The notes under the pieces are model-generated. The model worked only from the letters and a program-made list of their open reading frames with translations, was not told where the DNA came from and ran no database searches. Shown piece after piece: positions 56,368-61,967 of a stretch of 64,000 nucleotides of DNA. Source of the stretch: Bacillus sp. F19 (GTDB taxonomy: Bacteria; Bacillota; Bacilli; Bacillales; Bacillaceae); NCBI GenBank assembly GCA_023823795.1, contig CP085710.1:186001-250000 (forward strand), read 5' to 3'. Positions within the stretch are counted from its first letter, which is position 1. Each line of letters begins with the position of its first letter. Both the position numbers and the translations under genes were made by a program.

Positions 56368-56527
56368 AAAAAAGCCTCTCTTGTGTAAGAAGAGAGGCAG
56401 AATCTGCTATTTTCAGTTCCATCTCATCTGTCAAACATAACGTTTGCTGGAATTGGCACGGTTTCTGTTAAGATCCGTTGCCGAGGCTTCAAAGGGCCAT
56501 GTCCCTCCACCTCTCTTGATAAGAAAG
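56368..56527 (-). promoter_or_regulatory. SAM-I riboswitch (S-box) of the sfnG-like gene
   Basis: On the minus strand: CTTATCAAGAGAGGTGGAGG, GACATGGCCC, TTGAAGCCTCGGCAAC, CCGTGCCAATTCCAGCAAAC and closing GATGAG, the full S-box order. It is followed by a terminator GCCTCTCTT/AAGAGAGGC (56399-56373) with seven T, 30 nt before the gene start. The terminator arm AAGAGAGG repeats the aptamer's 5' AAGAGAGG. Confidence 0.94.
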
Positions 56528-56583
56528 CATATGAAATTAGTTGTATCATAAATAAAATTGTTTAATCTGTCAATTCTAAAAAT

Positions 56584-56904
56584 TCAGCCGAGATTTTCTT
56601 GCAGGAATTCAGTTACTTGCTCCGGCGATTTTGCATTAGCGCTGTGAAGATGCCCGAGTTTTTCTCCGTTTTTGAAGATCAGAATGCTTGGGATGCCCAT
56701 TACCTGATAAGTTTCTGCAAGTTCTGGGAACTCGTCTTTATTGATTTCGTACCAATCATATTTAGAATAAGCCCCAATGATTTCATCAATAAACATATTC
56801 ATTCTAGTACAGTCAGGGCACCAGTCTGCGAAAAATTTGATTAGCACCTCTTGATCTTGGGTAATTAACTCTTGAAACTGTTTTTTGGATGTAATTTGCT
56901 TCAT
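56584..56904 (-). CDS. ydbP: Thioredoxin-like protein YdbP
   Basis: A 106-aa thioredoxin-fold protein with the active site FFADWCPDCTRMNMFIDEII (Cys-Pro-Asp-Cys, about residue 28-31), the cis-Pro VMGIPSILIFKNGEKLGHLH and no signal peptide. The CPDC pair and length match B. subtilis YdbP, whose gene likewise lies just upstream of ddl. ATG 56910 lies against AAGGAGG; ATG 56904, seven nt after it, is chosen. The tandem palindrome array begins about 195 bp upstream of its start. Here the gene is on the minus strand, opposite to ddl. Confidence 0.85.
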   Translation of the reverse strand: MKQITSKKQFQELITQDQEVLIKFFADWCPDCTRMNMFIDEIIGAYSKYDWYEINKDEFPELAETYQVMGIPSILIFKNGEKLGHLHSANAKSPEQVTEFLQENLG

Positions 56905-57075
56905 GATCATGCCTCCTTGCTTTTATTTTAATACATAATGAGGATTTTGCATTCACGAATTGCTTATGCATGTCAAAATAAACTTTTTAAAGAGCTCTGG
57001 TCAACCGCAAACCGCGCTGAATGGAATAGGGAATTTGGTGTTCGCAAATAGCTGTTGATTTGTTACATGGGTGTG

Positions 57076-59220
57076 GAAAGTGCCTGCTGGATCCCCGGAA
57101 CAGCCTAAAACCTGATTTAGGGGAATCATAAGTCCTGTTTGGGTCTCCAGAACAGGCCAAAACCTGATTTAGGGAATCATAGGTCCTGTATGAGTCCCCC
57201 GAACAGTCCAAACCCTGAATTAGGGGAATCAAAGAGCTAGTATGAATCCCCCGAACAGTCCAAACCCCGATTTAGGGGAATCAAAGAGCCAGTTTGAGTC
57301 CCCCGAACAGTCCAAACCCCGATTTAGGGGAATCAAAGAGCCAGTTTGAATCCTTAGAACAGCCCAAAACCTGATTTAGATGAATCAAAGAGCAGTTTGA
57401 GTCCCCAAAACAGCTCAAACCCTGATTTAGGGGAATCAAAGAGCCAGTTTGAGTCCCCCGAACAGTCCAAACCCTGATTTAGGGGAATCATAGGTCCTGT
57501 ATGAGTCCCCCGAACAGGCCAAACCCTGATATAGGGGAATCAAAGAGCCAGTTTGAGTCCCCAGAACAGCCGAAACCCCGATTTAGGGGAATCAAAGAGC
57601 CAGTATGAGTCCCCCGAACAGTCCAAACCCCGATTTAGATGAATCAAAGAGCAGTTTGAATCCCCCGAACAGTCCAAACCCCGATTTAGGGGAATCAAAG
57701 AGCCAGTTTGAATCCTTAGAACAGCCCAAAACCTGATTTAGATGAATCAAAGAGCAGTTTGAGTCCCCAAAACAGCTCAAACCCTGATTTAGGGGAATCA
57801 AAGAGCCAGTTTGAGTCCCCCGAACAGGCCAAACCCTGATTTAGGGGACTCATAGGTCCTGTATGAGTCCCCAAAACAGTCCAAAACCCGATTTAGGGGA
57901 ATCATAGGTCCTGTATGATTCCCCAAAACAGCCCAAAACCTGATTTAGGGGAATCAAAGAGCCAGTTTGAGTCCCCCGAACAGGCCCAAACCCAATTTAG
58001 GGGAATCAAAGAGCCAGTATGAATCCCCCGAACAGGCCCAAACCCAATTTAGGGGAATCAAAGAGCCAGTATGAATCCCCCGAACAGCCCAAACCCCGAT
58101 TTAAGGGAATCAAAGACTCTGTATGAATCCCAGAAACAGTCCAAAACCTGATTTAGGGGAATCAAAGAGCCAGTATGAGTCCCCAGAACAGCCCAAACCC
58201 CAATTTAGGGGAATCAAAGAGCCAGTATGAATCCCCCGAACAGGCCAAACCCCGATTTAGGGGAATCAAAGAGCCAGTATGAATCCTCCGAACAGCCCAA
58301 ACCCCAATTTAGGGGAATCAAAGAGCCAGTTTGAATCCCCCGAACAGCCCAAAACCTGATTTAGGGGAATCAAAGAGCCAGTTTGAGTCCCCCGAACAGC
58401 CGAAACCCCGATTTAGGGAAATCAAAGAGCCAGTATGAGTCCCCAGAACAGGCCAAACCCTGATTTAGGGACTCATAGGTCCTGTATGAGTCCCCAGAAC
58501 AGGCCAAACCCTGAATTAGGGGAATCAAAGAGCTAGTATGAATCCCCCGAACAGTCCAAACCCCGATTTAGGGGAATCAAAGAGCCAGTTTGAGTCCCCC
58601 GAACAGTCCAAACCCCGATTTAGGGGAATCAAAGAGCCAGTTTGAATCCTTAGAACAGCCCAAAACCTGATTTAGATGAATCAAAGAGCAGTTTGAGTCC
58701 CCAAAACAGCTCAAACCCTGATTTAGGGGAATCAAAGAGCCAGTTTGAGTCCCCCGAACAGTCCAAACCCTGATTTAGGGGAATCATAGGTCCTGTATGA
58801 GTCCCCAAAACAGTCCAAAACCCGATTTAGGGGAATCATAGGTCCTGTATGAGTCCCCAAAACAGTCCAAAACCTGATTTAGGGGAATCAAAGAGCCAGT
58901 TTGAGTCCCCAGAACAGTCCAAAACCTGATTTAGGGGAATCAAAGAGCCAGTTTGAGTCCCCAAAACAGCTCAAACCCTGATTTAGGGGAATCAAAGAGC
59001 CAGTTTGAGTCCCCAGAACAAGCCAAACCCTGAATTAGGGGAATCAAAGAGCCAGTTTGAGTCCCCCGAACAGTCCAAACCCCGATTTAGATGAATCAAA
59101 GAGCCAGTTTGAGTCCCTCGAACAGCCCAAACCCCGATTTAGGGGAATCATAGGTCCTGTATGAGTCCCCAAAACAGTCCAAACCCCGATTTAGGGGAAT
59201 CAAAGAGCCTGTATGAGCCG
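57076..59220. repeat. Tandem array of 41 palindromic 52-bp units
   Basis: The anchor AACAG recurs 41 times from 57099 to 59173 with steps of 51 or 52 bp only. Consensus unit in two pieces: AACAGTCCAAACCCCGATTT and AGGGGAATCAAAGAGCCAGT, then TTGAGTCCCCCG. Each unit contains CCCC-GATTTA-GGGG and GGGGAATCAAA-N7-TTTGAGTCCCC, so two adjacent hairpins. In a variant the inner arm TCAAA/TTTGA becomes TCATA/TATGA, both sides changing together. Segment 57208-57509 is repeated exactly at 58504-58805. Because 52 is not a multiple of 3 and stops abound, the array is not coding. The flanking gap (56905-57075, 59221-59426) shows no gene. Confidence 0.95.
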
Positions 59221-59426
59221 CGAAGCAGCTAATAAACCATAATAGGGTAACCTCAGAGCCTGCAGAGACACTGCACCAACTCAAAAAGCTGAAAATATGA
59301 GAATCAAAAGCGGACGGAAAAAGGCTTGTCACTCGAATGTTATAAAGAATTGCATGATGAGCTATAACAATTTGATTTGAAAATGATAATATAGAAGAGA
59401 TGAACTTTCTTTAGGGGGATATCCAC

Positions 59427-60512
59427 ATGAAAATTAAAGTCGGATTATTATACGGCGGCAAGTCAGCAGAGCATCAGGTTTCATTGCAGACCGCACTTGC
59501 TGTTATAAAAGCTTTAGATACAAAGAAATTTGATATACATCCAATCTACATTTCAGATAAAGGCGAATGGATTCGCGGTGCAAAATTGCAGGAGCCTGTT
59601 GCAAACGTTGCTGCTCTTCAGTTTAGAGACGGCGGCACAGCTGTATCGCCGGTTGCTTTGAATCAGGATCTCTTTCCTTCAAAAACGGACAATGAGCATG
59701 AGCAAATTGATGTAGTGTTCCCGCTTCTGCATGGACCAAACGGTGAAGACGGAACGGTTCAGGGCATGCTTGAATTGCTGAATATTCCTTATGTAGGGAA
59801 TGGCGTTCTTGCTTCTGCAGCCGGCATGGATAAAGTGATCATGAAAAACCTGTTTGCACAGGCCGGACTCGAGCAGGCTAAATACGTTTCATTCATTAAA
59901 AACGACTGGAAGAAATCTCCGGAGAAAGCTTACGAGACAGTTGAGCAGGAGCTAGGCTACCCATGCTTTGTGAAACCAGCAAATCTTGGATCAAGTGTCG
60001 GCATCAGCAAATGCAAAGACAGGGAATCACTTGTAAAAGCTTTTGATGAGGCATTCAATTATGACCGCAAGATTATTATTGAAGAAGGCATTATCGGACG
60101 AGAAATCGAAATTGGCGTCATTGGGAACGATGAACCAAGCTGTTCTGTAGTCGGAGAGATTGCACCTAAAAAAGAATTTTACGACTACAAAGCAAAATAC
60201 GTTGATGGCGATACAGATATGATGATTCCGGCACAAGTAACAGAAGAAGAATATGCTCTGATCAAAGATTTAGCTATTAAATCATTTAAGGCCATTGACG
60301 GATCAGGCCTTGTACGTGCAGATTTCTTTTTAACAGAAGACGGAAGAGCCTTGATTAATGAAGTGAACACGATGCCTGGGTTTACTCCATACAGCATGTT
60401 CCCGCTGCTTTGGAAGCATGCAGGTGTTGAGTACCCTGAGCTTATTGAGAAATTAGTTGAGCTTGCGCTTGAACGCCACGAAGGAAAACAGCAAATTAAA
60501 CATACGTTTTAA
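59427..60512 (+). CDS. ddl: D-alanine-D-alanine ligase
   Basis: Joins two D-Ala using ATP for peptidoglycan precursors. The 361-aa ATP-grasp enzyme starts [20 protein letters not shown] and shows [80 protein letters not shown] with the metal-binding Glu-x-Asn and [20 protein letters not shown] precedes the ATG. murF follows after 87 nt, the usual ddl-murF pair. Tyr in the active-site loop ([10 protein letters not shown]) indicates a D-Ala-D-Ala rather than D-Ala-D-Lac enzyme; this is inferred from family knowledge. Confidence 0.97.
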
Positions 60513-60599: not shown

Positions 60600-61967
60600 A
60601 TGATACGACGTTCGTTATTGGACATTCAAACGATGGCAGGCGGATCAGGATTATCTGCTGAAAAAGAAAATGAGTTCATTCATGGAATTACAACGGATTC
60701 GAGGAAGATTGAAGCCCGAACCCTGTTCATCCCGATTGTCGGCGAAAATTTTGACGGGCACGAGTTTGCCGGAAAAGCGCTCGAAGAAGGTGCTGCTGCA
60801 ACTTTATGGGACCGCAATAAACCGAATCCTCCGTCAGGTGCCGTTATATTAGTTGATGATACGTTAAAGGCATTGCAGCAATTGGCGAGCAGCTATTTAG
60901 AGCAGCTTCAGCTTAAGGTAATCGGCATAACGGGAAGCAATGGGAAAACTACCACAAAAGATATGGTGGCTTCGCTGCTGGCCACAACATACCGTGTACA
61001 TAAAACCAAAGGGAATTTTAACAATCATATCGGATTGCCGCTTACGATCCTCAGCATGAACGAGGATACAGAAGTAGCTGTACTCGAAATGGGCATGAGC
61101 AGCAGGGGCGAAATCGAACTCCTTTCAAATCTTGCAAAGCCTGATGCTGCGATCATAACGAATATCGGCGAATCCCATTTAATGAACCTGGGATCAAGGG
61201 AAGGCATAGCAGAAGCAAAGCTTGAAATTGTCAGCGGGCTAAAGCCTGATGGCGTTCTTATTTATGACGGTGAGGAACCTCTGCTTACAGAACGGGTTCA
61301 AGCTTATTCGTTTAAAACGATTTCTTTTGGCGGGTCTGAGCGGAATGCTTATTCTCCTTCTGAGATTCAGCAAACAGAAAACGGCACATTCTTTAAAATC
61401 AGCGGGCGGGAAGAGAAGTTATTTTTACCTGTGCTCGGAAAACATAATGTTAACAATGCGCTCGCAGCAATCGCTGCAGCAGAATTCTTAGGTGTGCCGC
61501 AAGAGAAAATCAGTGAAGGATTAAAAGCAATCCAAATGACGGGCATGCGTCTCGAATTAACAAAAACAAAAGAGAATCTTGCTGTTATTAATGATGCATA
61601 TAATGCAAGCCCGACTTCAATGAAGGCAGCCATCAGGCTTGCGTGTGACATGCAGGGTTACAATCAGAAAATTCTTGTGCTGGGAGACATTCTTGAACTG
61701 GGCGAAGAGATGCAGGTGAAGTTTCATCAAGAGGTCGGAGAATCGATCGATTCAAAAGAGATTCATCATCTCTTCACGTTCGGGAAACTCGGTGCGGAAA
61801 TAGCTGCCGGTGCACGTAAAAAAATGGATCCGGCCCTAATTCATGTCTATCAAGATAAACAAGAGCTTGTTAATCAATTAAGACAGACGGCAAAATCCGG
61901 GGATCTCGTATTAGTAAAAGCTTCACGCGGCATGAAGCTTGAAGAAGTCGTTAATGCGCTTTTTTAA
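60600..61967 (+). CDS. murF: UDP-MurNAc-pentapeptide synthetase MurF
   Basis: Adds D-Ala-D-Ala to UDP-MurNAc-tripeptide in the cytosol, using the product of Ddl. The 455-aa Mur ligase has an N-terminal substrate domain (ITTDSRKIEARTLFIPIVGE), the P-loop VIGITGSNGKTTTKDMVASL, NFNNHIGLPLTILSMNEDTE, AVLEMGMSSRGEIELLSNLA, NIGESHLMNLGSREGIAEAK and the C-terminal VINDAYNASPTSMKAAIRLA with VLGDILELGE. AAAGGAG precedes the ATG. It lies directly after ddl. Confidence 0.97.
   Translation: MIRRSLLDIQTMAGGSGLSAEKENEFIHGITTDSRKIEARTLFIPIVGENFDGHEFAGKALEEGAAATLWDRNKPNPPSGAVILVDDTLKALQQLASSYLEQLQLKVIGITGSNGKTTTKDMVASLLATTYRVHKTKGNFNNHIGLPLTILSMNEDTEVAVLEMGMSSRGEIELLSNLAKPDAAIITNIGESHLMNLGSREGIAEAKLEIVSGLKPDGVLIYDGEEPLLTERVQAYSFKTISFGGSERNAYSPSEIQQTENGTFFKISGREEKLFLPVLGKHNVNNALAAIAAAEFLGVPQEKISEGLKAIQMTGMRLELTKTKENLAVINDAYNASPTSMKAAIRLACDMQGYNQKILVLGDILELGEEMQVKFHQEVGESIDSKEIHHLFTFGKLGAEIAAGARKKMDPALIHVYQDKQELVNQLRQTAKSGDLVLVKASRGMKLEEVVNALF

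Follow-up and report, generated by a model that had tools for sequence, protein, structure and literature searches.

The 41-copy tandem array that lies between a thioredoxin-family gene and ddl in Bacillus sp. F19 is real, and it belongs to a known yet unexplained kind of sequence, the 52-nt repeats of Bacillus. A dyad, TCAWA-N7-TWTGA, is common to arrays of several genera, its outer arms being specific to the lineage and the linker variable. There is, in our judgement, an even chance that the array is a phased series of sites for a putative dimeric DNA-binding protein. The window is the whole 64,000-nucleotide stretch that was analysed, and coordinates below are those of the window unless a fetched locus (L031 and the like) is named. 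G000 denotes the window genome and G001–G007 the genus relatives compared with it.

The array in the window

TRF places the array at 57092–59217, with a period of 52, 41.0 copies, 87% matches and a score of 2788; the second-best tandem array of the window scores 66. Its anchors span 57099–59173 (n = 41), and the 40 steps between them measure 52 bp in 34 cases and 51 bp in six. This bears out the 41 copies and 51–52 bp steps of the earlier note on this DNA, save that one anchor reads AACAA and the other 40 AACAG. The features of the array and its surroundings are as follows.

56584–56910, minus strand: thioredoxin-family protein, left neighbour (ORF; TIGR01068, E 3.2e-18, below cut-off)
57092–59217, no strand: tandem array, 41 units of 51–52 bp (TRF and unit split)
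57254–57460, no strand: 4-unit block, with an identical copy 25 units downstream at 58550–58756
57254–57274, no strand: more variable, array-private stretch of the unit that serves as dyad example (unit comparison)
57275–57303, no strand: dyad example GGGGAATCAAA-N7-TTTGAGTCCCC in that one unit
59427–60512, plus strand: ddl, D-alanine--D-alanine ligase, right neighbour (ORF; NF002526, above cut-off)
60600–61967, plus strand: murF, the gene after ddl (ORF; TIGR01143, above cut-off)

As to the neighbours named earlier, ddl is thus confirmed on the plus strand, and ydbP stands only as a member of the thioredoxin family. With the one gene on the minus strand and the other on the plus strand, the junction is divergent. 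The longest stop-free frame within the array amounts to 82 codons, on the minus strand, in keeping with the earlier view that no open frame runs through it; because, in addition, 52 is not a multiple of three, the array does not encode amino-acid repeats.

Of its 41 units, 32 are distinct. Runs of identical successive units occur at lags of 25 units (4), 18 units (3) and 7 units (3); three units of the 57254–57460 block recur at 57668–57822, and blastn against the own genome finds 211 bp at 99% identity at a lag of 1296. From these recurring runs it follows that the array grew at least partly through duplication of multi-unit blocks. An assembly artefact, which the earlier note had named as a way for the array to be false, is unlikely, since at this junction the genome of another species (G002) carries 14 copies between flanks of 96% identity; the copy number is given as assembled.

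Between 56850 and 59450, one promoter-like site was found against 2.5 expected, and no terminator-like site against 7.2 expected. An Rfam search of 56400–59500 gave nothing at gathering score within the array, the sole inner match being a sub-threshold rivX. Outside the array, a SAM riboswitch (RF00162, 89 bits) lies at 56421–56525 on the minus strand, and the gene downstream of it resembles SfnG/SsuD monooxygenases (below cut-off). A phage or plasmid origin was considered and set aside, there being no blastn match to the array at E 1e-5 in two collections, from which the records nearest the window genome are possibly excluded.

Occurrence in the genome, the genus and other genera

The earlier note had called for a search of the consensus in this genome and its relatives, and the outcome depends on the means. 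By blastn, a 211-base piece of the array meets only the window array in its own genome and has matches in 2 of 150 relatives, so that a core pattern was needed to find other arrays. In all, at least ten more arrays with the dyad come to light in the window genome. Among the matches listed for the pattern GGAATCAWA-N7-TWTGATTCC at up to two mismatches, forward matches number 103 in G000, 121 in G001, 124 in G002, 101 in G007, 11 in G006, two each in G003 and G005 and none in G004; the reversed pattern gives none in the genus genomes except one in G005. TRF arrays of 52, partly 53 bp occupy 28 of the 29 regions fetched from three genomes, L042 having none.

The dyad arrays of the window genome, at least 11 with the window array included, lie near 243, 370, 686, 935, 1086, 1116, 1141, 2727, 2801, 2834 and 4350 kb, have the same unit length and differ in their linkers. 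That near 935 kb is short and degenerate, and near 1715 kb lies one more array of 52-bp units, this one without the core. A genome without core matches may still hold 52-nt arrays with another core. The idea of a unique or unnamed array is ruled out by the dyad matches in relatives, together with the published class (PMC8161180).

A scan of species genomes for pairs of dyads at a distance of exactly 52 bp gave at least 120 loci, which are a sample and not a distribution. Arrays of four or more units occur in 89 of the 120 sampled loci, under titles that include Cytobacillus, Neobacillus, Peribacillus, Sutcliffiella, Ammoniphilus, Lysinibacillus, Aquibacillus, Alkalihalobacillus, Pseudalkalibacillus, Evansella and Robertmurraya, and in none of the 14 sampled loci with plainly non-Bacillales titles. 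A record titled Pseudomonas sp. ISL-84 (L059, L096 and L117) carries Bacillales-type 52-bp arrays at two of its three loci, and its label may be wrong. Bacillus indicus is now placed in Metabacillus. It stands in Table 1 of the published survey (PMC8161180) as an example of how a genome may lack core matches and still hold 52-nt arrays.

Unit anatomy

Both palindromes had been said to be present in each unit, which was an overstatement: exact CCCC-N6-GGGG is found in 11 of the 41 window units, exact GGGGAATCAAA-N7-TTTGAGTCCCC in 12, and the two together in just two. The looser core TCAWA-N6/7-TWTGA is present in 40 of the 41, with the left edge unit as the sole exception, and the CCCC-GATTTA-GGGG hairpin that had been stressed falls outside the core common to other arrays.

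The anatomy of the unit was drawn from 127 arrays with 1322 units, in which comparison of array consensuses shows inverted half-sites GKAMTCAWA within units. Symmetrised profiles of 123 of these arrays (28 Metabacillus and 95 other; four M. idriensis arrays were dropped) reveal a dyad of about 35 bp whose core and arms are rich in information; the remaining linker of about 17 bp is poor. The Metabacillus half-site approximates TTTGRGGKAMTCAWA (28 arrays), and the outer arms differ in other genera, with GTCG, GGCA and GACG as examples (95 arrays). The core was itself included in the search for L053–L172, and the core with GGAA arms (two mismatches allowed) in the Metabacillus search. Eight arrays were met at hairpin places without the core in the search, and seven of these have core sites at no more than one mismatch (just three sites in L195, none in L188).

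The fetched loci contain 135 arrays of about 52 or 104 bp, and the consensus of 11 is at least two mismatches from the core, which counts against its being universal. Among published 52-nt consensuses, 18 of 25 have some dyad at p ≤ 0.05 against shuffles, uncorrected for the number of tests, and the other seven have none at p 0.05; one consensus, of B. alkalitelluris, has exactly the TCAWA core, and most use others.

Some arrays depart from the common plan. In L110, L066 and L120 (Neobacillus niacini and Bacillus sp. FJAT-29937), each unit seemingly carries two dyads, with distances of 22 and 30 bp. Core-less or unscored arrays of 52 bp (or 156–159 bp) lie in L079 (401–670 and 1090–1311), L115 (1118–1823), L147 (191–623), L126 (6338–6808) and L055 (1057–1550); these are other subfamilies, in genomes that also carry core arrays.

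Spacing of the units

A length of 52 bp corresponds to five turns of B-DNA. Spacing in the genus was taken from 37 sources and 412 steps between 26 and 78 bp, the sources having mostly been found by the single-copy pattern or the hairpin (L024–L027 first by multi-unit blastn). Steps of 51–53 bp account for 403 of the 412 (364 at 52, 29 at 53 and 10 at 51); 41 bp occurs three times, and six other values once each. When the gap was left open (N{20,50}), 22 of 28 pairs in a Sutcliffiella genome stood at 52 bp and six at 51, and all 17 pairs in B. piscicola at 52. In the latter, 93 of 96 steps are 52 bp, and linkers are at most 50% identical in 50 of 92 scored neighbour pairs, which are still 52 bp apart. 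The spacing thus stays steady even between neighbours whose linkers have diverged that far. Out-of-phase spacings of 32, 35, 57 and 78 bp also occur. At about 2680–2900 of L046, units of about 41 bp, one helical turn less, stand in an array otherwise of 52–53 bp.

Arrays at gene junctions

Across species, arrays persist at gene junctions even as their sequence is replaced. G000 and G002 have five array pairs at common junctions, with flanks 90–97% identical, and L034 and L179 make up a sixth junction pair. One junction is common to three species, M. idriensis among them (L152), and the G002 array L025 has an M. idriensis counterpart in L048. At the ddl junction the copy number is 41 in G000 and 14 in G002. 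Across six pairs, which are not independent (three share loci), divergence between arrays at common junctions is 0.03–0.14 in TCAWA, 0.08–0.32 in the arms and 0.27–0.54 in the linkers.

Replacement and loss are also seen. L031 and L039 represent different subfamilies at one junction in two species; in place of the G002 array L035, the genomes G000, G001 and G007 have a short terminator-like hairpin; and at the place of L043 in the window genome about one degenerate unit remains. A set of 125 array intervals, which counts three M. idriensis loci twice, includes 95 with both neighbours seen, of which 58 are tandem, 27 convergent and 10 divergent; the window array therefore lies in the least common setting. 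An ORF of at least 90 aa is overlapped in 12 of the 125.

A bulged hairpin beside the arrays

A bulged, terminator-like hairpin with A- and T-tracts, consensus GGRTACTAAATTGC-ACA-GCAATTTGTAYCC, recurs in the genus. The copy in L031 (2262–2326) has a 17-bp stem with one bulge, at -19 kcal/mol, and the bulge is probably why a simple terminator scan does not report the hairpin. At up to three mismatches there are seven copies in G000, nine in G002, 11 in G007 and none in G004, the reversed control giving none. Beside these 27 copies, 52-bp arrays start within 200 bp on the 3' side in 14 cases and on the 5' side in none, and the core occurs within 400 bp on the 3' side in 18 and on the 5' side in four. 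The other 13 are without an array within 200 bp; the array of L188 lies farther off and on the other side. Several arrays (L184, L186, L189, L191, L192, L195 and L197) were first met through the hairpin.

At up to two mismatches the hairpin is present in 5 of 81 family genomes, G000, G001, G002, G006 and G007, the very members of the genus in which core matches exceed ten, and it is absent in G003–G005; these five could merely form a single clade, the ones with the hairpin. The hairpin may mark where arrays sit, or it may belong to what spreads. In other genera, no 12-mer was common to four or more arrays among flanks searched in a single orientation, of which 52 were from Sutcliffiella-type arrays, 18 from Ammoniphilus, 42 from B. 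piscicola and 18 from 'P. bovis' DE0126.

Arm matching and folding

If hairpins were selected array by array, the arms of an array should match each other better than they match those of other arrays of the same genus. Among 97 arrays the match was 0.691 within the same array and 0.685 between different arrays of a genus (p 0.39), with a cross-genus level of 0.39. This is as a genus-wide half-site would give. With no protein involved, like arms could also come about because the arrays of a genus are related. The test drew on 124 of the 127 arrays (three dropped), or 97 after a mixed group of 27 was left out, and groups for it and for the flank 12-mers were assigned by hand from record titles. 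With the mixed group kept, the match was 0.648 against 0.612 under permutation (p 0.014, 124 arrays), an excess that genus mixing can explain but need not.

Folding varies from array to array. For tiled consensuses of 31 genus arrays against tiled shuffled units, the median best-strand z is -1.4, with 11 arrays below -2 and 12 above -1. Four actual units of the window array reach z -4.5 and -2.7 on the two strands, its tiled consensus gives -1.4 and -0.7, and L039 has no fold signal (+1.3 and +0.2). Read as a hairpin, the core often mispairs (A-A 41 and T-T 22 among 620 core cells, 124 arrays), and in the arms of the same arrays G-T mismatches (80) barely exceed A-C (65). At the inner positions of the spacer, symmetry is lower than under permutation, 0.21 against 0.35. 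The arm test and the folding both favour half-sites read by a protein and make an RNA less likely; on the same two grounds, an RNA hairpin as the conserved function is a weak candidate.

Proposed function and alternatives

We infer from these observations a protein that would bind the arrays as follows. Each 52-bp unit would offer one site for a symmetric, homodimeric DNA-binding protein, made up of two inverted half-sites, TCAWA and the lineage-specific outer arms, 7 bp apart. The five-turn length of the unit would set all bound dimers on one face of the DNA, where they could form a regular nucleoprotein fibre, probably with a role in local chromosome organisation. Array size would change by duplication of multi-unit blocks, and linkers would drift while selection held the sites and their spacing. 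A more ambitious form of the proposal, which we regard as doubtful, takes the arrays as filament sites for a putative lineage-diversifying homodimeric nucleoid protein of Bacillales and adds, in Metabacillus, an oriented terminator hairpin that would shield many arrays from transcription of neighbouring genes.

The earlier note had offered a binding platform, a structured RNA and a selfish minisatellite. The platform is the best supported of the three, because the dyad is conserved, the five-turn spacing is steady, left and right arms do not vary together from array to array within a genus and the RNA fold is inconsistent. We count against it the seven dyad-less published consensuses and the different cores in most of the others, the 11 off-core arrays, the arm match at p 0.014, the out-of-phase spacings and the B. 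coagulans repeats of the class in RNA-seq. Its main rival is a passive or selfish satellite, spread and maintained by slippage and unequal exchange, in which the amplification machinery would produce the dyad and the 52-bp length as side effects, with no host role. Such turnover would fit the block duplications, the 41 and 14 copies at one junction, the exchange of subfamilies between L031 and L039, the G002 array with no counterpart at its place in G000, G001 and G007, the patchy occurrence of the core across the genus and the few overlaps with genes. It sits less well with a core and spacing that are kept while linkers diverge, with five G000/G002 pairs at kept junctions and one junction held in three species, and with the absence of the RAYT Y1 transposase family from all five genomes with more than ten core matches; we think it unlikely, if well worth keeping in view.

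Transcription of the arrays to a hairpin-rich RNA, acting as a sponge or small RNA, we judge improbable. The folding of the four window units on both strands agrees with it, as does the reported occurrence of B. coagulans 52-nt repeats in RNA-seq (PMC8625621); against it stand the modest median z, the lack of any signal in L039, the often mispaired core with its near-equal arm mismatches, and the shortage of promoter-like sites about the window array. The inner spacer, less symmetric than permuted, is what an oriented overlap would give if the dyad were a tyrosine-recombinase core site, made up of two arms plus an asymmetric overlap of 7 bp, and the arrays changed size by site-specific recombination. 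The arm and spacer lengths do fit such sites. A circle of 52 bp would be very short, however, and ordinary homologous exchange explains the block duplications, so that we give recombination sites very little credence.

The cross-genus half-sites of the dyad, the five-turn spacing and sister species with and without the core make the satellite testable by means of a single labelled DNA fragment. Were a protein to bind the arrays, it would be a bacterial parallel to the satellite-binding proteins of eukaryotic chromosomes, and if the filament-site reading is true, the arrays would amount to a satellite of bacteria that has a sequence-specific binding protein to itself.

Comparison with known systems

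REP/BIME elements are intergenic imperfect palindromes in tandem arrays, of lineage-specific sequence and mobilised by RAYT. The 52-bp arrays resemble them in being palindromic, tandem and lineage-specific and differ in their fixed 52-bp period. Matches to PF01797 (Y1_Tnp) among the eight genomes are two in G003 and one in G004, with none in the others, G000 included; RAYT/REP mobilisation was accordingly rejected. The MIRU-VNTR minisatellites of mycobacteria consist of intergenic tandem units, about 50 bp long, that are dispersed and vary in copy number. Their layout is alike and their taxon another, the likeness being one of description only, and we know of no dyad core in common. With CRISPR the window array shares part-palindromic repeats at regular spacing; its linkers, in contrast, repeat within the array and unique spacers are absent, as the earlier note had seen, and no CRISPR family is among the Rfam matches up to E 1 at 56400–59500.

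On the features compared, the window array falls within the 52-nt class of Subirana & Messeguer (IJMS 2021, PMC8161180), so the earlier statement that no named family fits does not hold. Those authors counted 1886 arrays of 51–53 nt in 176 Bacillus genomes and described them as non-coding, constant in length, variable in sequence and of no known function, with a polymerising protein or small RNAs as proposals (PMC8161180). The class is stated to lack sequence conservation, to comprise several unrelated families per genome and to be partly conserved between strains, and it is reported from Firmicutes only; arrays have mostly 4–10 copies, some being longer, and contain short signals particular to a species, whose reverse is often present in the unit as well (PMC8161180). 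Two helical turns were noted for the separate 20–21 nt class (PMC8161180).

The class is defined by at least four regular repeats of 51–53 nt, and the window array has 41 at steps of 51–52. Several arrays of the same unit length and different sequence are likewise found in the window genome, amino-acid repeats are absent from the window array, and the inverted half-sites GKAMTCAWA are short signals with their reverse in the unit. Among the literature matches listed beside the papers of these authors (PMC8161180, PMC8625621, PMC6749651), none names a function for 52-nt repeats. Relative to the main text of the published survey (PMC8161180), the new elements are the cross-genus dyad core, the five-turn argument for a length of 52 nt, the arm test, the comparison of junctions and the adjacent hairpin.
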